A DNA stretch of 64,000 bases from Gordonia westfalica (lineage in GTDB: Bacteria > Actinomycetota > Actinomycetes > Mycobacteriales > Mycobacteriaceae): positions 1,178,001 through 1,242,000 of the forward strand of contig NZ_FNLM01000034.1 of assembly GCF_900105725.1 (NCBI RefSeq), in the 5' to 3' direction. The notes below the pieces were generated by a model, which saw nothing but the letters and a program-made list of their open reading frames with translations, had not been told where the DNA came from and did no database searches. The number at the start of each line of letters is the position of its first letter. Position 1 is the first letter of the stretch. Both the position numbers and the translations under genes were made by a program. Shown piece after piece: positions 1,931-11,665 of the stretch.

Positions 1931-1945
1931 CACGGGCCGACGAAA

Positions 1946-1978
1946 AAGCCCGCCGCCTGCTTTCGCAGGGGCGGGCTT
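1946..1978 (-). terminator. Displaced intrinsic terminator of tRNA-Asn
   Basis: Read on the minus strand this is AAGCCCGCCCCTGC, a GAAA loop, GCAGGCGGCGGGCTT (one bulged base), then a T5 run: a classical rho-independent terminator. It lies just outside the left attachment repeat, where the 3' end of the minus-strand tRNA-Asn gene would be without the insertion. I infer it was the original terminator of that tRNA. Confidence 0.65.
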
Positions 1979-1983
1979 CTCGT

Positions 1984-2014
1984 TCTGCTCCCCCAACTGG
2001 ACTCGAACCAGTAA
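1984..2014 (-). repeat. attL: 3' fragment of tRNA-Asn
   Basis: Thirty-one bases identical to 9956-9986. On the minus strand it contains the T-arm half and acceptor 3' strand of tRNA-Asn (CTGGTTCGAGTCCAG followed by TTGGGGGAGC). It diverges from the tRNA right after this segment, marking the left crossover. Confidence 0.9.
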
Positions 2015-2128
2015 ACGGAGCGAAGTGTCGATCGGGCCGCTGGTCAGCATGTTCACGTCTGTGACCTGCCAACACGCCTGACAGTAACTTGTGCACGTTG
2101 CGGAAGCAAGCGGAAGTTTCTGTAAGCT

Positions 2129-2150
2129 GATTCTGCACGTATTCTGCACG
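2129..2150. promoter_or_regulatory. Left arm-type repeat (candidate integrase binding site)
   Basis: ATTCTGCACG occurs twice at 11-bp spacing, 16 bp before the integrase start. The right end of the element (9890-9911) carries the same 22-bp arrangement with C instead of T at two positions. One-helical-turn direct repeats on both sides of an att core are typical of arm sites for tyrosine integrases; binding is inferred. Confidence 0.5.
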
Positions 2151-2165
2151 CCGAGGGGACATCGC

Positions 2166-3295
2166 ATGGCACAGAGACGGACCCGGCGCGCGTTCGGCGG
2201 ACTCCGAAAGCTTCCGAGTGGCCGATATCAGGCGAACTACACCGGCCCCGACGGTGCGCTTCATAAGGCCCCTCCACTTTCGAGACCAAGCTCGACGCCG
2301 AGGCGTGGCTCGCCGACCGACGGCGCGAGATCGACCGCAATCTGTGGAACCCGGTCGACGCCGACCGTCCCGCCGTTCCCCTGTTCGGCGACTACGCCGA
2401 CGAGTGGCTCGAGACCCGCACCGTGCGTGGCCGACCTCTCAAGACCAGGACGCGTGACCACTACCGCGAACTCCTCGACCGGCACCTGGTGCCCGAGTTC
2501 GGAGACTCAACCCTCGACGGGATCACTCCCGCGATGGTCCGCCAGTGGCACGCGCATCTCCTGCCGACCAAGGCCACGATGCGAGCCCATGCATACTCCC
2601 TGATGCGGACGATCATGAGTTCGGCTGTGAGCGCCGAGTACATCGACGCGAACCCCTGCCGCGTGGAGGGAGCCGGATCGGCCCAACGCAAGTCACGCAC
2701 GACACCTGCGACCGTCGAAGAACTGATGACGATTGTCGAGAACATGCCCGAACGACTGCGCCTCATGGTGCAGCTCGCCGCCTGGTGCGCGCTACGCTAC
2801 GGCGAGCTGATCGAGTTGCGACGCAAGGACATTGACGTCGCGAACGGTACGGTGTCGATCACCCGAGCAGCAATCCGTCGCGCCGATGGGCAGTACGTCG
2901 TGACGACTCCCAAGTCTGAGGCCGGCGTCCGTGTCGTCCACATTCCGCCGCACCTGATTCCGCTCGCGACCGACCACCTAGAGCAACACGTCGGGCGAGG
3001 CCGCGACGCACTGCTATTCGAGGCCGGCAACGGCGGCTACCTCACCCCTACCTCGCTGTACCGCTGGTACTACCCCGCTCGTCGGGCTGCTGGCCGCGAC
3101 GACCTCCGGTTTCATGACCTCCGCCATACCGGCGCTGTCCTGGCAGCTCTCACGGGCGCCACTCTCGCTGAACTTCAACAGCGCCTTGGTCATTCGACGG
3201 TATCGGCGGCGATGAAGTACCAGCACGCGGCGAAGGGTCGCGACAAGAAGATTGCCGAGGCGCTGTCGAAACTCGTCGGTGGCGACACGCAATAG
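2166..3295 (+). pseudogene. int: Tyrosine recombinase/integrase, frame-disrupted
   Basis: The N-terminal arm-binding segment begins at ATG 2166 (MAQRRTRRAFGGLRKLPSG) and runs to ALHKAP. The rest (TFETKLDAEAWLADRRREI and onward) is in the -1 frame, with the switch at the C4 run 2269-2272; one extra C would restore one frame of about 376 residues. The catalytic domain is complete: Arg in ALRYGEL, Lys in TPKSEAG, HDLRH, LGHST, and the nucleophile Tyr in AAMKYQHA. No canonical slippery heptamer is present, so this is a mutation or sequencing error rather than obvious programmed frameshifting. An internal GTG at 2423 would give only a catalytic-domain fragment. Confidence 0.85.
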
Positions 3296-3339
3296 CTGTT
3301 GTGCGGCACCACGCGGAAATAGTTTGCTACAGTCGGAGT

Positions 3340-3417
3340 TACGTGAACGTCAGCGGTTAAGTGACGGCCCGGAGAGTCACCTTCTCCGGATACGTGTACG
3401 TCAACGGTAATGACGGG
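3340..3417 (+). promoter_or_regulatory. Promoter region of the element's operon with direct repeats
   Basis: Two imperfect direct repeats precede the HTH gene. TACGTGAACGTCAGCGGT begins at 3340 and continues to a TGACGG; TACGTGTACGTCAACGGT begins at 3391 and also continues to a TGACGG. Spacing is about 51 bp. This is a plausible binding region for the small HTH protein or an unseen repressor, or an iteron-like origin region for the ATPase-encoding operon. The choice between these cannot be made by eye. Confidence 0.45.
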
Positions 3418-3451
3418 TCCCCCGCAAAGATCCTTGCCTTTGGAGTACCAC

Positions 3452-3664
3452 GTGTCCAAACCCAAACCCTCTGTATCGAATTCGCCTCAGCGCCGATGGG
3501 CCAATCCGAACGAAGCCGCCGAGTACCTCGGAGTAAGCACGCGCACTGTTCGTCAGATGATCGCTGACGGCAGGTTACGCGGCTACCGTAACGGCCCCAG
3601 AATGATCCGCCTCGATCTCAACGAGATCGACGCTTCCATGACCCCGTTCGGGGGTGCAGCATGA
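3452..3664 (+). CDS. Excisionase-type helix-turn-helix protein
   Basis: A 70-residue protein with the MerR-like HTH of excisionase/DNA-binding-17 proteins: WANPNEAAEYLGVSTRTVRQ then MIADGRLRGYR and RLDLNEIDA. It probably acts as recombination directionality factor or operon regulator for the element. The GTG at 3452 is chosen because TTGGAG lies about 7 bases upstream; an ATG at 3410 lacks one. It opens a run of genes joined by ATGA overlaps, so they are probably co-transcribed and translationally coupled. Confidence 0.8.
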   Translation: MSKPKPSVSNSPQRRWANPNEAAEYLGVSTRTVRQMIADGRLRGYRNGPRMIRLDLNEIDASMTPFGGAA

Positions 3665-3753
3665 GCGGTCCCGACTACGCGCAGTTCGCCGAACTCGAAG
3701 ATCTCGGCGTCATCGATCACCAGGCCGATGAGATCGGCGGTGACATCGAATGA
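3661..3753 (+). CDS. Very small hypothetical protein (30 aa)
   Basis: The ATG at 3661 overlaps the previous stop (ATGA) and the stop at 3751-3753 overlaps the next start in the same way. The product is acidic, rich in Asp/Glu (AELEDLGVIDHQADEIGGDIE). The only support is the coupling geometry on both sides; no domain is recognised. Confidence 0.5.
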   Translation: MSGPDYAQFAELEDLGVIDHQADEIGGDIE

Positions 3754-4016
3754 GCCCCGGAAATGCCGCCGCCCCCGGCCGGGCAACCGAGGGCGAGCGT
3801 GAGAGTTCAGCAGGCGGGCGGAATCTCGAGGTCGATTCTATCAACCTTGACGCGTACTTGGAGCCTGCCGACCGACTCATGTTAGCGGCGTTGCGCGACG
3901 GCCACTATGTCCTCGCCGTGGTGTGCCGTGTGTGCGGAAAGCCTCTGACTGCTAAACGATCCCGCGTCCTAGGCGTTGGTCCCGACTGCCGTAAGCGGGT
4001 GGTCGCTGATGCCTGA
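3750..4016 (+). CDS. DUF6011-like zinc-ribbon protein
   Basis: An 88-residue protein. The C-terminal half has CRVCGKPLTAKRSRVLGVGP followed by a further Cys (DCRKR), the C-x2-C ... G-x-G-P-x-C pattern of the DUF6011 zinc-binding domain common in actinophage accessory genes. The N-terminal 30 residues are low complexity. It starts in an ATGA overlap and ends overlapping the next gene. Function unknown; nucleic-acid binding is a guess from the ribbon. Confidence 0.65.
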   Translation: MSPGNAAAPGRATEGERESSAGGRNLEVDSINLDAYLEPADRLMLAALRDGHYVLAVVCRVCGKPLTAKRSRVLGVGPDCRKRVVADA

Positions 4017-4329
4017 CCGTTACACAGAAGTTCGCGAGTACGTGCAACGGCTCGTCGGTCGTGCTGGCGGACCGACCCCCGACGCAGGCTCACCCGCATG
4101 GTGTGCGCTCGCAGACGGCGACCAGGCCAAGCTCATTGCCGTCCTCACCGCAGGCACACGCGCCGTCCTCGAGGACGAACTCGCAGCGCTCGATGCCCGC
4201 CGATGTGCCGCCAAGGCAACCGCTATCGAGGTGGCCCAGGCTGCGAACTGGTCAGACGTTGCCCGCCGAGTCCGGGACCGCGATCAAGCACTGCGATCTG
4301 GTGCCTACATTGGGCGGGTGAGCGCATGA
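4009..4329 (+). CDS. DUF2742-like phage protein
   Basis: A 106-residue protein. GSPAWCALADGDQAKLIAVL near residue 24, and a downstream AANWSDVARRVRDRDQ, match the layout I recall for DUF2742 proteins of phiRv1 and mycobacteriophages (WCALADDDPRK...AADWSAVA). The ATG at 4009 lies inside the end of the previous gene and is preferred to the in-frame GTG at 3976 because it fits the overlap pattern of this operon. Function unknown. Confidence 0.6.
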   Translation: MPDRYTEVREYVQRLVGRAGGPTPDAGSPAWCALADGDQAKLIAVLTAGTRAVLEDELAALDARRCAAKATAIEVAQAANWSDVARRVRDRDQALRSGAYIGRVSA

Positions 4330-5531
4330 CTGTTCACGGTACCTATGCCGACATCGCTGGACTGTTCTCCGGCACTCTGCCCGCGTCTCCCGAACCGGAC
4401 TTTCTGACCCGACTCGACGGCCACGGGCTGCTGTACGGAGAGGCTGTGAACTCCGTCTTCGGCGAACCCGAAGGAGGCAAGACGTGGCTCAGTCTCGCCG
4501 CTATCGCCGAAGAACTGCGCAGCCCAGTTGGACGTGGGCTCTTCCTCGATCTCGACCACAACGGGGTCCGATCCGTGGCCAACCGTCTCGTCGGACTCGG
4601 GGCACCGCGCCAGGTGCTCGCCGATCCTCAACGGTTCCGGTACGCCGAACCCGAAGGGGCAAACGAGGTGATGGCCGTCGTCGCTGACTGCGAAGAGTGG
4701 CGGCCCACCATTGTGGTGATCGACTCCGTAGGCGAACTGGTGCCCTTGTTCCGCGGCGACTCGAACTCGTCGGACGATTACACCCGCGTTCACCGTCAGG
4801 TTGCCACTCGCCTGGCCAAGCTAGGCGCGTGTGTCGTACTCATCGACCACGTTTCCAAGTCGACTGAGTCGCAGCGGTACGGGGCGACTGGCACGGGCGC
4901 GAAACGACGCGCTATCGACGGTGCCGCGCTTCGGGTCCGTATCCGAAGCGCGTTCACCCCAGGACGTGGTGGGTCGGCGGTCATCACCGTCAACAAAGAC
5001 CGCCATGGAGGTGTCCGTGAACATGCGCACCTCGACGAGGGCTCAAAAGAACCGACCGCCGGAATCTTTGAGATGGGAGTCGGTGACGGTTCCTCCATCG
5101 CGTGGAAGCTACGAGCGCCACTCGCGGGGGAACGACTATCCGAGTCGGCCCCACTCGCAGACGTGACTGCTCTGGCTGCGCTTGATCCGCAGCCCGAGAC
5201 TGTTCGCGACGTGAAGGAGCGAATGGGTTGGGGCAGCAATCGCGCGAACGCCGCTCTCAAAGGTTTGCGGGCCGGCGAACACCTCACGATCCCTGTTCCC
5301 GAGGAACAGGAACGGAACACGGAACGAGCGGCTGACACCTCATGTTCCCCGTTCCCCGACCCCTATACCCAGGAACAGAGGAACACGCCTGACCAGCACG
5401 AACAGGAGACTGTTCCCCACGCGTTCCCCGCAGCTACAACCGAAACCCAAGTTCCCGGTGACGTCACCGAAAACACCCCCGGACTCACCCCACGCGTCCT
5501 CGAAATCCTCGGAAAGGGACACCAGCGATGA
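4326..5531 (+). CDS. RecA/RepA-like AAA ATPase (phage replication)
   Basis: A 401-residue protein starting in an ATGA overlap. The Walker A loop is GEPEGGKTW (about residue 44) and Walker B is TIVVIDSVGEL. A downstream VVLIDHVSK and GATGTGAKRRAIDGA match the RepA/DnaB-like single-ring ATPases of plasmids and phages. The C-terminal 130 residues include a winged-helix-like segment (ETVRDVKERMGWGSNRANAA) and then a low-complexity tail. It probably drives replication of the excised element. Homologous-position genes exist in phiRv1-type elements (family knowledge). Confidence 0.75.
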   Translation: MTVHGTYADIAGLFSGTLPASPEPDFLTRLDGHGLLYGEAVNSVFGEPEGGKTWLSLAAIAEELRSPVGRGLFLDLDHNGVRSVANRLVGLGAPRQVLADPQRFRYAEPEGANEVMAVVADCEEWRPTIVVIDSVGELVPLFRGDSNSSDDYTRVHRQVATRLAKLGACVVLIDHVSKSTESQRYGATGTGAKRRAIDGAALRVRIRSAFTPGRGGSAVITVNKDRHGGVREHAHLDEGSKEPTAGIFEMGVGDGSSIAWKLRAPLAGERLSESAPLADVTALAALDPQPETVRDVKERMGWGSNRANAALKGLRAGEHLTIPVPEEQERNTERAADTSCSPFPDPYTQEQRNTPDQHEQETVPHAFPAATTETQVPGDVTENTPGLTPRVLEILGKGHQR

Positions 5532-5830
5532 ACCCCGAACACCTCGACAACCTGATCCGCCATTGCGAGGAATACACAGGCCGACCGTGGGACGGAAGCG
5601 TGGAGCATGCCACCGCCGCAGCCGACATGGCCGCCGAAATCGTCGACATCCTCCACGCCCACGTCGACTGGCTCAGCGGCTGCAAGGAACGGGTGGAGCG
5701 GGCGGGATTGCCCTGGAACACCCGAACGTGCCGAGATCAATCACGCCGTGACGGCGACCTCGCAGCCCCGCCGCAATGGATAGGCAATTACAGCGAGAAC
5801 TGTACGCCCGCACATCTGCTCAACCGATGA
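5528..5830 (+). CDS. Hypothetical protein (100 aa) of the element
   Basis: Starts at ATG 5528 overlapping the stop of the ATPase (ATGA). The first 60 residues look helical and globular (LDNLIRHCEEYTGRPWDGS, AADMAAEIVDILHAHVDWL); the tail is irregular and may not be conserved. No family is recognised. It is the last gene of the coupled early cluster. Confidence 0.55.
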   Translation: MNPEHLDNLIRHCEEYTGRPWDGSVEHATAAADMAAEIVDILHAHVDWLSGCKERVERAGLPWNTRTCRDQSRRDGDLAAPPQWIGNYSENCTPAHLLNR

Positions 5831-5892
5831 CACGCTACTGGCGCTCCCCGCTCTTCTACGCCACAGCAGCCGTCCCCAACACAGGAGAACCA

Positions 5893-6369
5893 ATGAGTAC
5901 TGAAATCAACGACAGCACAACCGAATCTGACCAGACCGCAGACGGGTCCCCGCAGGACCCGGCAACCGAGGTTCAGCCAGAGCCTGACTCCCAGCCGGAG
6001 GGCACCGAACCGCAGAGCAAACGCGAAGCGCGCTACCGCGTCCAACTCCGCGAAACCGAAGCCGAACGCGACACCCTCGCCGGCCTGCTCGAAACACTGC
6101 AACGCACCGAAGCCGAACGCCTCGCCGCCGACGTGATCCACAAGCCTGACGCGCTCTGGGCAGCCGACATCAACCTCACCGACCTCCTCGACGACACCGG
6201 ACTCGTCAGCCCCGACAAAGTGAAAGCCGCCGCCCACGCCGCCAAGGAGAAGCTCGGCCTCGAACTCGGTGCGGGAGAACGCAAAAAGCGCGGACCCGTC
6301 GTACCCCGCGAAGGCACCGGCGCAGACCGGTCAACACACAACGCGTGGAAAGACGCCTTCAACAAGTAG
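5893..6369 (+). CDS. Scaffold-like acidic coiled-coil protein upstream of capsid
   Basis: A 158-residue protein with AGGAGAA 3 bases before ATG 5893. The first 45 residues are acidic and low complexity. A predicted coiled coil follows (KREARYRVQLRETEAERDTL, then LLETLQRTEAERLAADVI), and the C-terminus is basic (ERKKRGP...WKDAFNK). This layout, directly 5' of a capsid gene, is that of capsid assembly scaffolding proteins. No protease motif is visible. The function is inferred from architecture and position. Confidence 0.6.
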   Translation: MSTEINDSTTESDQTADGSPQDPATEVQPEPDSQPEGTEPQSKREARYRVQLRETEAERDTLAGLLETLQRTEAERLAADVIHKPDALWAADINLTDLLDDTGLVSPDKVKAAAHAAKEKLGLELGAGERKKRGPVVPREGTGADRSTHNAWKDAFNK

Positions 6370-6512
6370 TACAATCACCACCAGAACCGCGGTGAGACAC
6401 CAGGTTCGACGACATACCGCCCACGCGGGCAACGGATCGACGCGAGCCGCGCACCGAGAACCACTCACAGGTGCGCGGCTCGCCGCGTTCCCACACCCCG
6501 TAAGGAACAACA

Positions 6513-7358
6513 ATGGCTGTCGAAACCACAATCACCAGCGCCAAAGCCTGGAGCCCCGACCTCACCGCCGTTCCCCCGGCCGACGCCGTCCCCGACGCGC
6601 TCATCCTCGAGACCTCCACCGTCTCAGGCACCATCGAAGGCGACGCCCCCGCCGTCCGCGTCCAGTACGTCGACGACGCCACGGCCTCGTTCACCGCAGA
6701 AGGTGTGACCATCGACGAGGCCAACCCCGGCCTGAGTGAAGCCCTGGTGCACACCGGCAAGGTCGCACAGATCATCCGGCTCAGCCGGGAACAGTTCGCC
6801 CAGCCCAACGCATCCGAGCTGCTGTCGGCGTCCGTCGCCCGAGCCGTCACCAAGGCCGGCAACACCGCCTACATCGCGCAGGCCGCACCGACCAGTCCCG
6901 CCGTCACACCACCCGCCGGGCTGCTCAACATCCCCGGCATCGTCAACGGGGGAGCCGTAGCCGATAGCCTCGACGGCCTCGTCGACCTCCTCGCAACCCT
7001 CGCGGGCAACGGCGCCGACCCATCGCACATCGTCCTGTCACCCACCGCATGGGCATCACTGCGCAAGTTCAAGACCGCCGCCGACTACAACACCAGCCTG
7101 CTCGGCACCGGCGCGACCGACGCCCAGAAGTTCCTCCTCGACCTTCCCGTCCTCGTCACCCCCGCAGCACCAAGCGGAAGCGGCCTCGTCATCGACAAAA
7201 CCGCCGTCGTCAGCGCCGTCGGCAACGTCGAAGTCTCCATCAGCGAACACGCCTACTTCGCCGCCGACAGCATCGCCGTCCGCTGCATCTGGCGCTTCGG
7301 AGCCAACGTCGTCAAACCCAACCGCATCGGCAAGTTCACCGTCACCGCACCCGAATAG
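6513..7358 (+). CDS. HK97-fold phage major capsid protein
   Basis: A 281-residue protein with TAAGGA 7 bases before ATG 6513. Features of HK97-fold capsids of actinophages: an N-terminal strand-rich segment (VRVQYVDDATASFTAEGVTI), KVAQIIRLSREQ, a small GLLN insertion (PAGLLNIPGI), SHIVLSPTAWASLRKFKTA, LLDLPVLVTPAAPSG, and the C-terminal VEVSISEHAYFAADSIAVRC...FGANVVKPNRI, typical of these capsids. It forms the icosahedral shell. At 281 residues it is at the small end of the family and lacks the long N-terminal delta domain, consistent with the separate scaffold-like gene upstream. Confidence 0.88.
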   Translation: MAVETTITSAKAWSPDLTAVPPADAVPDALILETSTVSGTIEGDAPAVRVQYVDDATASFTAEGVTIDEANPGLSEALVHTGKVAQIIRLSREQFAQPNASELLSASVARAVTKAGNTAYIAQAAPTSPAVTPPAGLLNIPGIVNGGAVADSLDGLVDLLATLAGNGADPSHIVLSPTAWASLRKFKTAADYNTSLLGTGATDAQKFLLDLPVLVTPAAPSGSGLVIDKTAVVSAVGNVEVSISEHAYFAADSIAVRCIWRFGANVVKPNRIGKFTVTAPE

Positions 7359-7637
7359 CCCGCACAAACCGCGCAGCCGCAGGCGTCAAACCGCGACACA
7401 TGAGACACGGCAAGGACATCCCACGACGAGGCTATTTCGGGCCTCAAGGATGCACCTGCGCCCCGGCTGCGCACCCACAAACCCCAGGGGACAGGGACCC
7501 CTGACCAGCACAAACCGGCCCCTCGTGGTCATAGGCCTCCGTGTGTGTGACCCCCTCCCCCCTGGGTTCAAGGGCACCTGTAGTACTTGAAAACCTGCGC
7601 GACCCGCCATGGGTTCCGCCAACGAAATGGAGGCTCG

Positions 7638-7997
7638 ATGCCGTTCGCTTCGACCACTATCCGTAACCGTCGTCGCGCCGAGGTTCGCAGGCGCGACGGT
7701 AATGCACCTTGCGCCCTCCAGATCACGGCGGACTGCCAGTCCGCCAATGGGCAGATCGATTACGACGCGCCCCCTCTTGATCCGCGGTCGTTTCAGGTCG
7801 ACCACATCGTTTCGTCTGAGGAGGCTCGGCATATGGGTTGGTCAGTGCTCGAGGCCGACGCGTTGGACAACTGTGCCGGCGTGTGTCGGCAGTGCAACCG
7901 CGAGAAGTCGGCGGGCCGTGCTCCTACAGGGCCGACCGTCCGTCCGACGTATGTGAATCCTCGATTCGATTGGGAGCCCGAGAGTCATGGCGCGTAA
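7638..7997 (+). CDS. HNH endonuclease
   Basis: A 119-residue protein with GGAGG 5 bases before ATG 7638 (an in-frame upstream start at 7587 has none). Zinc Cys pairs and the HNH core are visible: CALQITADC near residue 23, VDHIVSSEEARHMGW, DNCAGVCRQCNREKS. In HK97-like phages an HNH nuclease near the terminase assists DNA packaging; here no large terminase gene follows. It may instead act on helper-phage DNA during packaging or be a free-standing nuclease. A 280-bp gap separates it from the capsid gene. Confidence 0.85.
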   Translation: MPFASTTIRNRRRAEVRRRDGNAPCALQITADCQSANGQIDYDAPPLDPRSFQVDHIVSSEEARHMGWSVLEADALDNCAGVCRQCNREKSAGRAPTGPTVRPTYVNPRFDWEPESHGA

Positions 7998-8241
7998 GTA
8001 CGACACGTTGAGCGCGGCGATGGCCGCTGGCGATGAGCTGGCTGAGGCTGAGATTCGGTACCGGCTGCTGGCCGAGACGTTCACGGACATGCCCCAGCTG
8101 CGCGGCAACATGAATGGTCAGTTGGAGCGCGTGAAGGCCGAGATTCTGCGGTTGCGGGCGGCCAGGAAGTCGAAGCCTGCGACCTCTTCGGGCCGGCTGG
8201 TGCCGGTCGATACGGCGAGGTTTCGGAAGTCGGGGGCGTAG
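7987..8241 (+). CDS. Small helical hypothetical protein (84 aa)
   Basis: Starts at ATG 7987, 11 bp inside the end of the HNH gene. It is mostly helical (MARKYDTLSAAMAAGDELAE; ERVKAEILRLRAARK), with a basic C-terminus. Size and position next to an HNH gene resemble small terminase or head-completion proteins, but no diagnostic motif is present, so function is left open. Confidence 0.6.
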   Translation: MARKYDTLSAAMAAGDELAEAEIRYRLLAETFTDMPQLRGNMNGQLERVKAEILRLRAARKSKPATSSGRLVPVDTARFRKSGA

Positions 8242-8423
8242 AGGGCGGCCTACTGGGCCGCAACGAACTCCCGGATGACACTCGGGTCTGACCAGAGGAA
8301 CGGGACTGACACCCTACGGGTGGCAGAAGCTGTACCCCATCCCGAACGTCCCACGAACCTTGCCTACCTATCGCGTCAGGCCACGACTGCTAGCACCGTG
8401 TCCGATGGACAGGTGTTCTCGTC

Positions 8424-8567
8424 ATGGCACCAGCTCGTGTTTCGCGACGACACGAGCGGTGGCGTACGTCCCCGGCGTACGACTGGGCTACGGGGAGCCT
8501 GCTGGTTTTCGTCGGGCGAGGCGATGACGACGGGCGCACGCGGTCAGGGTGGTTGGTGCGCGCTTAG
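8424..8567 (+). CDS. Possible small ORF (47 aa), weak support
   Basis: ATG 8424 to TAG 8567 encodes a basic peptide (MAPARVSRRHERWRTSPAYD...). GACAGG lies about 9 bases upstream. It ends exactly where the tRNA-like segment begins. No family is recognised and overlapping frames are also open, so this may be spurious. Confidence 0.2.
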   Translation: MAPARVSRRHERWRTSPAYDWATGSLLVFVGRGDDDGRTRSGWLVRA

Positions 8568-8630
8568 TGCCCCGCCGGGAGTCGAACCCGGCAACCACTG
8601 CTGTTACGGCGGTGGTCGACCGTCAGGGCT
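8567..8630 (-). ncRNA. tRNA-like fold without a D-arm
   Basis: On the minus strand: acceptor-like AGCCCTG (8630-8624) pairs with CGGGGCA (8574-8568) in 6 of 7 positions including one G-T. There is an anticodon-arm-like hairpin CCACCGC-CGTAACA-GCAGTGG (one mismatch), then a perfect T-arm CCGGG-TTCGACT-CCCGG. Only about 8 bases sit where a D-arm should be, the 7-base loop lacks T33, and the acceptor has an A-A first pair. It is therefore a tRNA relic, a phage tRNA-like element or a chance structure, not a canonical tRNA. Confidence 0.4.
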
Positions 8631-8632
8631 AG

Positions 8633-8668
8633 CTTCCCGGTGCCGGGAAGTGGTCAGATTGACCACTT
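8633..8668 (+). terminator. Back-to-back perfect hairpins, terminator-like
   Basis: CTTCCCGG-TG-CCGGGAAG (8633-8650) overlaps AAGTGGTCA-GAT-TGACCACTT (8648-8668), whose run of four Ts ends at 8670 before CGAG. The second hairpin with its T-run resembles an intrinsic terminator on the plus strand, downstream of the capsid-HNH genes. Confidence 0.45.
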
Positions 8669-8862
8669 TTCGAGATGGACTTCTCGCCTGCGCCCGCGAA
8701 GTCCGTTGGGCGGGGCTTCGATACGGTCTTGCTCTCGTCAAGACCCTGCCGAACGGGGAAGTGCATCTCGGGCGATGCCCGGCAATTTCGCCGAGCGGGG
8801 TATGGGGCGGCGAATTGCCCGGGCGGCCTGACGAGAACGTCTACCGTAGACTTTCTCGATTA

Positions 8863-8886
8863 GGGGTACTCGCTGTCGAGTACCCC
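8863..8886. terminator. Hairpin between converging transcripts
   Basis: Perfect 10-bp stem GGGGTACTCG-CTGT-CGAGTACCCC, 9 bases beyond the stop of the antisense cassette (8895). No T-run on either strand, as is common for actinobacterial stem-only terminators. Confidence 0.45.
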
Positions 8887-8894
8887 CCAATCCA

Positions 8895-9437
8895 TTAGCA
8901 GCGGTGCAGTCGGCACCACGGGCCATTGCGGCATGGCTTGCCCGAGCGGGTCATGCGGCCACACTTCGCGCGCAACACGTTGATCGTGTACTTGGCGGGG
9001 AGCTTGCCGAGATGTTCGTGGTCCGGGACTGGAAGGCCTTTGCAGGGTGCATTCTTGTCATCGCCATCAACGACGTAGAGCAGTTCGCCGCCCTCGGACC
9101 CGATGAGTGTGTGAATGAAGTAGCCGTCGACCATCTCGAATATGCGGTGGTCGTCAAGAATCGTGTATCCCTCCCCATCGGCGTATTCGATGGGCAGACA
9201 CTCGGGGCACGTCCGCCAATAGTTGGGGACGTCGAACACCCGCCGACAGTGCTTGCACCACCGGTTAAGCACGTCCGCGAGCTTGTCGCGGTAGCCCTGT
9301 TCGAAATCGTCGTCGTCTCGCAACGTCATTGTCGCCAGCATCTGCTCGGCGACGTGCTGCTCGTCATCGCCTGACGTGGCTGCACGCTCTGCGAGTTCCT
9401 CGCGGGCGGCACGCACCCCGGCGTTGTACACGCTCAC
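8895..9437 (-). CDS. Cys-rich hypothetical protein of the antisense cargo cassette
   Basis: A 180-residue protein, unknown family. A zinc-ribbon-like CKHCRRVF...CPEC lies near residue 62, followed by an acidic globular part (GYFIHTLIGSEGGELLYVVD). A second Cys/His cluster is at the C-terminus (CGRMTRSGKPCRNGPWC...HRC), like small treble-clef fingers. The GTG at 9437 overlaps the upstream stop (GTGA) and is preferred; an ATG at 9455 in the same frame is the alternative. It is the last gene of a three-gene minus-strand unit next to attR, where such elements usually carry cargo. Confidence 0.6.
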   Translation of the reverse strand: MSVYNAGVRAAREELAERAATSGDDEQHVAEQMLATMTLRDDDDFEQGYRDKLADVLNRWCKHCRRVFDVPNYWRTCPECLPIEYADGEGYTILDDHRIFEMVDGYFIHTLIGSEGGELLYVVDGDDKNAPCKGLPVPDHEHLGKLPAKYTINVLRAKCGRMTRSGKPCRNGPWCRLHRC

Positions 9438-9697
9438 TGGTCCAGCCCCAACCATGCGGCGACGTCACCAATTGGTGACAGGATGTCGTCGACCTCTTCC
9501 CCGGTCGCTGTAGAGAGGGCCTGCACGACCCGGCGGGCAAGCCGCGTCACGTCGTCGTGGTCGTAGTCGACGGCCTCCTCGAGCTGCCAGACGGCGTGAC
9601 GCAGTTCGGCCGCGTGGTCGCACTCGGTGTCTTGCTCGTAGAGGTCCCAGGCGTGGCGAATCAGGAGTTCGGCCGGCTCGGTGGTCGGCACGATCAT
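9434..9697 (-). CDS. Hypothetical acidic helical protein (87 aa), cargo cassette
   Basis: ATG 9697 overlaps the stop of the upstream 38-residue gene (ATGA), and its own stop overlaps the next start. The product is acidic and helical (ELRHAVWQLEEAVDYDHDD; LARRVVQALSTATGEEVDDI). The frame is open much further upstream, but the coupling geometry argues for 9697. No family recognised. Confidence 0.55.
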   Translation of the reverse strand: MIVPTTEPAELLIRHAWDLYEQDTECDHAAELRHAVWQLEEAVDYDHDDVTRLARRVVQALSTATGEEVDDILSPIGDVAAWLGLDQ

Positions 9698-9810
9698 GCG
9701 TGCCACCCGAGCTCGATGCAGACGGCCATGACCGTCAGCGGAACGAAGTACATCGCGAGTAGAAATGTCGCCACGCGGGCAACGAGGGATAGAGTGCGGG
9801 GACGGTTCAC
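9694..9810 (-). CDS. Small single-pass membrane peptide (38 aa), cargo cassette
   Basis: GTG at 9810 follows GGAGGTAACC, the best ribosome binding site of the cassette. The product has a basic N-terminus (MNRPRTLSLVARVA) and one hydrophobic segment (TFLLAMYFVPLTVMAVCI), so it should insert in the membrane. Its stop overlaps the next ATG. Small membrane proteins leading a cargo operon can be holin-like or superinfection-exclusion factors; that is speculation. Confidence 0.5.
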   Translation of the reverse strand: MNRPRTLSLVARVATFLLAMYFVPLTVMAVCIELGWHA

Positions 9811-9889
9811 GGTTACCTCCGTGGATCGAGGCCCCGGCGGTGCTACGAACACCGAGCGGGGCCGACTTGTATGCCGGGCGACCCGCTCG

Positions 9890-9911
9890 GATTCCGCACG
9901 TATTCCGCACG
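9890..9911. promoter_or_regulatory. Right arm-type repeat (candidate integrase binding site)
   Basis: ATTCCGCACG twice at 11-bp spacing, the counterpart of 2129-2150 (two differences in 22 bp), in the same orientation and 45 bp from the right att core. Confidence 0.5.
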
Positions 9912-9920
9912 AAACAGAAA

Positions 9921-9942
9921 AGGCCCGGTGGATACCGGGCCT
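9921..9942 (-). terminator. Element-borne replacement terminator for tRNA-Asn
   Basis: On the minus strand AGGCCCGGT-ATCC-ACCGGGCCT followed by TTTTCTG: an intrinsic terminator immediately downstream of the reconstituted tRNA-Asn but inside the element. The tRNA's original terminator was left on the far side at 1946-1978. Confidence 0.65.
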
Positions 9943-9955
9943 GACCTGCTACTTC

Positions 9956-9986
9956 TCTGCTCCCCCAACTGGACTCGAACCAGTAA
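9956..9986 (-). repeat. attR: 3' part of the intact tRNA-Asn
   Basis: Perfect 31-bp copy of attL (1984-2014). Integration at this end keeps the tRNA sequence whole. Confidence 0.9.
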
Positions 9987-10032
9987 CCGTTCGATTAACA
10001 GTCGAATGCTCTGCCAATTGAGCTATGGGGGA
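9960..10032 (-). tRNA. tRNA-Asn (GTT)
   Basis: A 73-nt cloverleaf: acceptor TCCCCCA pairs with TGGGGGA, D-arm around AGCTCAATTGGCAGAGC, anticodon loop CTGTTAA giving GTT (9997-9999), and T-arm CTGGTTCGAGTCCAG. Discriminator G; CCA is not encoded. Its 3' half is the integration target of the element. Confidence 0.95.
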
Positions 10033-10157
10033 TTGCTCTGGCCCTCATCATGCGCCGTGAGCGCATCACTCGAACCGAGGACAGACTCTAGCGCATGCCG
10101 CCGTCGGACAACAAAACGGCAGGTCACCGCTCCAGGGAGTTGAGGCATCTCACCCGA

Positions 10158-11665
10158 TCAGTGACCGGCCACGACGTCGGATTCGTCGACCTCCACCGGG
10201 GTGCGCGCTCCGGGCAGGAACCAGTAGGCCAGGCACACGACGCCGAAGAACAGGTAGCCGAGCGAGACCTCCGGAGCGGCCGCCCAGGACACCTCCGGCG
10301 CGGGATGAGGCCGATGAACGACAGCACCGCGCCCTCGCCGAGGGTCTTGAGTCCCTCGTAGATCACGCCGGCACCGTTCATCGCCTCCATACCCACTTCG
10401 TCGACCGTCGTGCCCGCCGCCGACAACGCGTTGTCGATGAGCCCACGTCCCCACTCGGCGAGGTTCGGCAGCAGCGCCGCGACCACCGCGACCGCGTGCA
10501 GGCGCGGCACCGCCTGGAACGCCTGTGCGCCGATCAGCAAGCCGATGAACAGCAGGATCGGCGCGATCGCGGACACCGGTAGCAGGTAGTTCAGCACCCC
10601 GAATAGCCCGAGGAAACACAGCAGACCGATCGCGACGCCGCTGGCCAGCGAGTAACTCGCACGACCACCGGCGTCCTTCCAGCCGGGATGCCCGATGTAG
10701 ATCGCCGGGGGGAACGGCGACCCGAACGCCGCGCCGATGCACGCGCCGGCACCATCGGCGAGCAGGACGCTGCGCAGGTTGTAGTTGTCCCCCGCCGCCG
10801 CGGCGGACTCCACGTTGCTCATCGCCTCGGTGAAGTTGTAGACGCCCAGCGGTATCGCGGTGCCGAGCAGTGGCGCAAGATCACCGAGGCCGTTGAACAA
10901 CAGGTCGATTCGTTGATCCGGGATGCCGACGGCGATGTCCTCGACGGCCGCGGTCAGGTCGGGCACCGACATGTACCCGCCGGCCCAGCCGATCGCGGTA
11001 CCGACGAGCAGTGCGGCGAGTCCGACGGGGACGTTGCCGGGCAGCTTCACATCGGTGGAGAAGCCGATGAGGATGATCGCGAGCACCGGCAGACCGATCC
11101 ACGCGGCCTCCCAGATCTGCCCTGCCGGACGCATCGAGATGAACGTGATCGAGATACCGGCCAGGGTGCCGAGCATCGCTGCGCGGGGCGTCAGCTTCCG
11201 CACATACGGTCCGACGAAGGCGCCGATCATGACGATGACGCCGATCATGAATGCCCATGCCAGACCGGCCTGCCAGGCCTAAATGGCGTCCTTGGTGTTC
11301 AGATACACCGGCAGCATGACGACGAACACCACGATGAACATGTGCGGCACGCTCGGCCCGTAGGGCAGGGCGGTCACATCGTCGCGTCCCTCCCGCGCGG
11401 CGAGGCGTCGGGCCAGGAACGTGTAGTAGAGGTTGCCCAGGATCAGCGCGACGCCCAGCGCCGGCAGCACCGTGCCGAGGACGTTGTCTGGGCTGAGGCC
11501 GATGACGCCGTTCATCAGGCCCGTCAACGTCAGGACGTTGACCAGGATGTTGAAGCCGAGACCCGAAAAGGCGTTGGTGTCTCCGCGCGTCCACCACGCG
11601 ACCTTCGTGGCCGGGGTCGGTGACGGCGGGTCGGTGGTCGGGGCTGGATCGGTTGCGGCGCTCAT
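10158..11665 (-). pseudogene. NCS2/AGZA-type permease, broken by an amber codon and a 3' frameshift
   Basis: The coding sequence begins at ATG 11665 after GGAGGAATTC. The N-terminal part has the substrate-binding and helix patterns of xanthine/uracil-type permeases (GLGFNILVNVLTLTGLM, DVTALPYGPSVPHMFIV). An in-frame TAG at 11279-11281 follows ...NTKDAI; reading continues in frame as AWQAGLAWAFMIGVIVMIGA. Near 10290-10310 the frame shifts again and the expected end (GYLFFGVVCLAYWFLPG...VVAGH) finishes at 10158. About 12 membrane segments remain recognisable. Next to the cysteine hydrolase and allophanate hydrolase it was probably an importer for biuret or a related amide, now inactive. Confidence 0.75.

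Follow-up and report, generated by a model that had tools for sequence, protein, structure and literature searches.

The 64,000-nt stretch of Gordonia westfalica DNA analysed here (the window) carries a 7,972-bp element inserted in a tRNA-Asn gene, which is most probably an integrated phage satellite of Gordonia, with predicted helpers of the Cheoctovirus, Avanivirus or Langleyhallvirinae type. The element is integrated, has integration and replication genes of its own and is missing essential virion genes, which is the general description of a satellite; in this copy the integrase has changed frame. A first-pass annotation of the DNA had proposed a satellite-like element with only a capsid. 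The satellite reading gains support from a capsid that finds no match in phages, from relatives with no large terminase (TerL) or portal match beside the capsid, and from dN/dS values of 0.11–0.34 relative to a second element. The ‘only a capsid’ part was wrong, as a cos-like site, an HNH endonuclease gene and a terminase small subunit (TerS) gene are also carried. Since the element is more than a capsid gene, its sequence suggests that it probably directs packaging itself and would borrow the large terminase, portal, connectors and tail.

An element integrated in tRNA-Asn

The element is flanked by a 31-bp core repeat at each end (Table 1). The first-pass annotation had correctly described a perfect 31-bp duplication of the tRNA-Asn 3' end and an element of less than 8 kb; beyond one mismatch, two more bases of the repeat agree. 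It had also suggested looking for the empty site in related strains, and this site is found in the sister genome G014, where both flanks meet at a single 31-bp copy (locus L080, 6420-6450). Namely, window positions 1942-2014 and those from 9956 onward align to one contiguous stretch of G014, where their overlap is exactly 31 bp. Identity of the flanks to G014 is 85-99%, in pieces, and G014 is about 1 kb longer than the window between an HxlR gene and the tRNA. The tRNA-Asn attachment site, together with its empty counterpart, is the specific attachment site that PMC6092414 lists among the features of a phage-inducible chromosomal island (PICI). In genome G022, a related capsid gene adjoins a tRNA-Asn that shares a 29-nt end. 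Next to the element, a permease-like gene at 10124-11248 appears to be about 95 bp short compared with G014, with a frame shift near its C-terminus, as judged from alignment ends. The host assembly comprises 6.4 Mb in 38 contigs.

A putative cos-HNH-TerS packaging cassette

The features that tie the element to a particular group of phages lie directly after the capsid gene. Of 50,697 phage records, TerS matches 109; identity is 60-80% for 82 of them and below 60% for the remaining 27, and by host the phages divide into Mycobacterium (82) and Gordonia (27). The HNH protein is 66-76% identical to the HNH proteins of seven phages. At the left end of Job42, Squiddly and Phistory, the order is cos end, HNH, TerS, terminase and portal; Squiddly differs by a second HNH gene and by its longer left arm. 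The first 700 bases of Seagreen, Ramsey, Getalong, Malisha and Soul22 hold TerS and the beginning of the terminase gene, preceded by a first gene that is annotated as HNH in three of these phages and as hypothetical in the other two, and the Jabbawokkie record opens with two HNH genes. We therefore predict that the helpers are phages with this cos-HNH-TerS order that infect Mycobacterium and Gordonia.

Alignment of the right and left ends of nine phages revealed a conserved GGCAT|..TGTGTGTGACC, from which Jabbawokkie, Seagreen and Malisha deviate. A weight matrix built from these nine ends, whose own sites score 33.7-47.1 bits when not left out one at a time, gave 34.1 bits at window position 7521, and the next best score on either strand of the 64 kb was 7.1. 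The control maximum was 11.4 bits over 266,540 positions of eight other Gordonia loci, including two phage contigs. The matrix also scored 30.0 bits in an element of genome G047 (L032) and 27.8 bits in an element of G058 (L079), both just upstream of HNH-TerS, while 13 further loci gave 13.0 bits at best (L038). The 23-mer at 7530-7552 has a single match in the window when up to three mismatches are allowed, and none in 100 shuffles. By analogy with the ends of the phage records, the left end would fall at 7533; the HNH gene then starts at base 106 from this predicted end, compared with 38-41 in Job42, Phistory, Getalong, Malisha and Soul22. With a cos-like site, HNH and TerS present, specific packaging of the element's DNA in phage-like particles, a PICI trait in PMC6092414, is a prediction.

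The first-pass annotation had described the element as lacking portal, terminase and tail, which stands for the portal, large terminase and tail and fails for the small terminase. In hmmscan, none of the main open reading frames (ORFs) of the element matched a portal, large terminase, protease or tail family. Terminase and portal genes hidden at 8242-8894, which the first-pass annotation had named as a refuting find, did not turn up, as the ORF at 8275-8895 matches no family. Whole-genome searches with TerL (phrog_2, phrog_9) and portal (PF04860, phrog_104) profiles likewise gave no match in the element. The nearest TerL-type matches are weak (phrog_2, E 4e-4 and 5e-4), one about 29 kb away in the host genome and the other at a distance of 20 kb in G022. 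As a marker of TerL, phrog_2 lacks specificity, with matches in 11 of 14 control genomes. Besides TerS, the first-pass annotation had overlooked the cos at 7521-7552 and two minus-strand genes at 8895-9718.

A capsid of separate lineage

The capsid has no match (E<=1e-5) in the 50,697 phage records. A profile comparison with the capsid common to Squiddly and Phistory was unsupportive (probability 0.6%); the capsids of these two phages are identical, so that effectively one sequence was compared. The capsid and TerS therefore do not look as if both came from one recent phage. Both the satellite capsid and the Squiddly/Phistory capsid match phrog_10, and Foldseek matched the predicted structure (E <1e-9) to HK97, Gordonia phage Cozz, Mycobacterium phage Ogopogo, SaPI1 and EcCI2, a capsid-forming PICI (cf-PICI). 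Ogopogo is itself among the phages that bear this TerS. The AlphaFold model is modest, with a mean pLDDT of 69.6, values below 50 for residues 1-35 and Foldseek TM-scores of about 0.5-0.65, and it supports the HK97 fold only. A capsid gene of its own is the feature that the element shares with cf-PICIs.

Scanning with an alignment of capsids recovered 11 loci in named genomes, from Xylanimicrobium, Propionibacterium, Mycobacterium (four), Mycolicibacterium, Leucobacter, Bifidobacterium, Flaviflexus and G. rhizosphera. Genome G003 contains a contig that is letter-identical to NZ_BAHC01000207 of G. rhizosphera. Scans with the single capsid sequence against contigs of named genomes and viral contigs, and an ATPase scan of viral contigs, gave no useful yield.

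Capsid relatives in other Gordonia genomes

Capsid matches were found in 27 of the 101 genomes searched, the host's own included. Apart from the window, ten capsid relatives at 35-79% identity were followed up in other Gordonia genomes. Replication-type genes accompany nine of them by Pfam (L035 under the curated cut-off) and the tenth, in G022, by eye. Integrases resembling that of the window were detected by tblastn in five loci (L033, L034, L035, L036, L041) and others were seen by eye in four (L032, L037, L038, L040), with none seen in the cut G022 contig. No TerL or portal match of the profiles above lies beside the capsid in any of the ten, three of which (G003, G016, G022) are truncated where a contig ends. 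An adaptor-like ORF directly follows the capsid gene in five of the ten (by eye); the one in L038 was tested with profile models, as was a second connector ORF in L035.

The nearest relative is the G047 element. Its integrase is of the serine type (by eye) and its primase is a DUF3631 protein, and it shares with the window the block o100-scaffold-capsid-cos-HNH-TerS-m186-m100. The seven protein genes in common show dN/dS of 0.11-0.34, with dS for o100 near saturation (1.2), and they are under purifying selection. Among 59 Gordonia genomes, 3 have a TerS of this class: those of the window, G047 and G058. In an unrooted tree of HNH and TerS from these three satellites and seven phages, the window and G047 split off together with a support of 100, G058 comes next and the phages group together at 88. 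This topology fits an older satellite lineage of the cassette better than a recent capture. The other nine capsid relatives (L033-L041) have no convincing site by the cos model, the best of them, in L038, scoring slightly above the control maximum. Capsid elements without the cassette must rely on another route.

A multi-copy phage in the host assembly

One phage is present in many copies in the host assembly, about 92-99.98% identical and several of them fold-back, on contigs C3, C14, C15, C16, C22, C27, C28, C32, C35 and C37 (L053-L062). It carries a phrog_104 portal, TerL and a tape-measure-like ORF, and it looks as if it had been at high copy when the host was sequenced. A resident helper with this TerS was considered and rejected, as the family occurs once in the assembly, inside the element.

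Proposed life cycle and alternative explanations

We infer that the element is induced, packaged in a small head and transferred as follows. The trigger would be a helper of the Cheoctovirus, Avanivirus or Langleyhallvirinae type, through infection or induction; the element would then excise via Int and Xis and replicate with its own AAA ATPase. It would make its own capsid and scaffold, and its TerS and HNH, with the large terminase of the helper, would cleave concatemers at the cos of the satellite so as to fill the small head, whose size we estimate at about T=3 for 8 kb, far below that of the helper. The helper would provide the portal, connectors and tail.

Several observations weigh against this proposal. 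The integrase of the window copy changes frame between its roughly 36 N-terminal residues and the rest, which could mean either that this copy has lost its mobility or that the assembly is in error here. The phage that seems to be at high copy occupies ten small contigs, yet the satellite capsid and TerS are each present once. A cos and TerS of this kind are found in only 2 of 11 Gordonia capsid elements. In addition, the sequence 3' of cos is a G-rich run in the phages (GGGGTAGGG) and C-rich in the satellites (window 7553-7570; L032 at about 9581; L079 at about 9089), and for this reason we regard the function of the satellite cos as putative; the C-rich run of G058 contains the reverse complement of the phage G-rich run. 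Finally, a single-sequence capsid scan of IMG/VR found no relative, an alignment-based scan found two contigs, and an exact search of IMG/VR for the satellite-type cos found no match.

By analogy with the cos-type SaPIs, the capsid homologue could instead be a decoy that forms no shell of its own and redirects size by co-assembling with the helper capsid, as is reported for their Ccm protein (PMC8569155). The absence of recognisable protease, portal and connector genes from the element would fit such a role. However, the profile comparison with one helper-type capsid lends it no support, the element has a scaffold-like gene of its own, and the adaptor-like ORF that follows the capsid in half of the relatives suggests heads of their own. 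We consider the decoy unlikely.

Less likely still, and improbable in our judgement, is a full phage of this TerS group that lost its portal, large terminase and tail and whose remaining genes are drifting: HNH and TerS are clearly of common ancestry with those phages and the integrase frame change would suit decay, but the capsid stands apart from theirs in both searches, it lies just before cos here whereas the right ends of the nine phages viewed have no annotated capsid gene, and G047 has the same block, under purifying selection, next to different integration and replication genes. In particular, a recent prophage remnant is unlikely because the capsid is unmatched in the phage records and dN/dS with G047 is low. 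A phage satellite that packages itself with helper parts thus remains our preferred reading.

Other genes of the element

Pfam and PHROG searches confirmed the helix-turn-helix (HTH) protein, RecA-like ATPase, HK97 capsid (PF05065) and HNH nuclease named in the first-pass annotation (Table 1). Its tyrosine integrase was right in identity and mistaken in being a single reading frame. An uninterrupted relative in G044 (L033 2650-3810) is 43% identical to the integrase, and the N-terminal piece has 53% identity with its beginning. The ATPase is a probable replication protein by sequence; 12 phage records match it at less than 60% identity, several of them annotated as primase or helicase. The scaffold-like protein owes its name to its position 5' of the capsid gene, which holds, and it has neither a Pfam nor a PHROG match; tblastn matches to it occur in 8 of the 10 relative loci. 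Protein o100 belongs to no known Pfam or PHROG family and matches no phage record, m186 has no match among the phage records, and neither a gene nor an Rfam match was found at 8305-8630. Among seven element proteins, a search for known defence genes gave only two weak PADLOC matches (E 0.0073 and 0.0049), and at Rfam gathering scores the tRNA is the sole structured RNA.

Table 1. Features of the integrated element, in window coordinates.
Feature	Position	Strand	Evidence
attL, 31-bp core	1984..2014		repeat search
Integrase N-terminal piece, ~36 aa, out of frame with main piece	2166..2276	+	three-frame translations
Tyrosine integrase, main piece	2267..3295	+	phrog_1 6e-65, PF00589
HTH_17, excisionase/regulator-like	3410..3664	+	Pfam and PHROG profile searches
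DUF6011 protein	3750..4016	+	Pfam
DUF2742 protein	4009..4329	+	Pfam
AAA_25/RecA-like ATPase	4326..5531	+	Pfam and PHROG
o100, 100-aa protein	5528..5830	+	70% identity in G047 element
Scaffold-like protein	5893..6369	+	placed before capsid gene
HK97-fold major capsid protein	6513..7358	+	PF05065 2e-13, phrog_10 7e-18, model and Foldseek
cos-like site	7521..7552	+	cos model from nine phages, 34.1 bits
HNH endonuclease of packaging module	7638..7997	+	phrog_338 7e-20
TerS, overlaps HNH	7987..8241	+	phrog_4479 2.1e-32
Conserved stretch, 77% identity to G047 element	8305..8630		alignment
m186, 186-aa Cys-rich protein	8895..9455	minus	90% identity in G047 element
m100, ~94-aa protein, start not fixed	9434..9718	minus	conserved in G047 element
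attR, 31-bp core, restores tRNA 3' end	9956..9986		repeat search
tRNA-Asn (gtt), intact	9959..10032	minus	tRNA prediction and Rfam

Satellites with a tape measure

The third genome with this TerS, G058, contains an element of about 15.4 kb (L109:7342 to L079:10246; contig C1, about 279.3-294.7 kb) that is bounded by a 39-bp repeat with one copy in tRNA-Met. The element has a tyrosine-type integrase and a regulator (by eye), primases and a WhiB-like gene, then a 1,637-aa tape measure (phrog_10780, 7e-201) and a tail assembly chaperone, followed by cos, HNH and TerS. No capsid ORF was recognised. A 227-aa protein encoded next to the tape measure has relatives in four more of the 59 genomes (25-32% identity, E 2e-23 to 9e-5). 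These lie in L119, L120, L121 and L122 (G012, G055, G057 and G054, respectively) beside tape-measure-like ORFs of 1,392-1,880 aa and replication-type genes (by eye), on contigs without a phrog_9 large-terminase match. The four loci are weaker relatives of the G058 type and lack this TerS.

We tentatively suggest a guild of Gordonia satellites, a possibility that we hold at somewhat below even, in which one helper ‘passport’ (the cos-HNH-TerS cassette, of a satellite lineage of its own) is combined with different virion-shaping parts: capsid and scaffold in the window and G047, or a tape measure and tail assembly chaperone with no recognised capsid in G058. If this is true, satellites would share out the building of virions, with head-side and tail-side takeovers of the same phages being exchangeable. 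The passages of PMC12987554 on PLEs report these as the first satellites to use their own tape measure, and putative tmp genes are shown there in PLE-like elements and some cf-PICIs. The G058 type is therefore a further lead and not the first of its kind.

Comparison with known systems

The match of cos and TerS to one phage group permits a direct and cheap test with existing phages such as Phistory, Squiddly, Malisha and Job42. If the element joins a capsid of its own to the portal and large terminase of a helper, the question also arises how a foreign portal enters a capsid that is not recognisably related, by sequence, to that of the helper. A literature search found no Gordonia satellite described in the titles or abstract openings that it returned. 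PICI candidates with integrase and capsid have already been published for Mycobacterium; the additions here are the tie of cos and TerS to a phage group, and a sister satellite with a tape measure in place of a capsid. Abad et al. 2023 (PMC10654092) left open whether the capsid-bearing Mycobacterium islands are induced and transduced by phages.

Going by the descriptions in PMC10654092, these Mycobacterium candidates and phiRv1/phiRv2 resemble the window element in having an integrase and a major capsid gene, replication genes, and tRNA or non-tRNA sites. Some also have terminase and scaffold genes, and they are presumed satellites whose mobilisation is presumed there too. The window element differs from them, as described, in its Gordonia host and in a cos-HNH-TerS cassette tied to a phage group. 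The cf-PICIs, as outlined in PMC10690885, likewise have their own capsid and their own packaging genes, including HNH and TerS. However, they also encode a portal, protease, connectors and large terminase and need only tails, whereas none of these genes was found in the window element. MulchRoom and MiniFlayer of Streptomyces are, in the account of the same paper, actinomycete satellites with capsid and packaging genes, but unlike the window element they carry both terminase subunits, a portal and terminal repeats, and have no primase. In the cos-type and TerS-redirecting PICIs and SaPIs, as PMC6092414 and PMC10690885 present them, a cos or TerS redirects helper packaging, as is predicted for the window element; these islands use or remodel the helper capsid, whereas the window element has an HK97-fold capsid of its own lineage.

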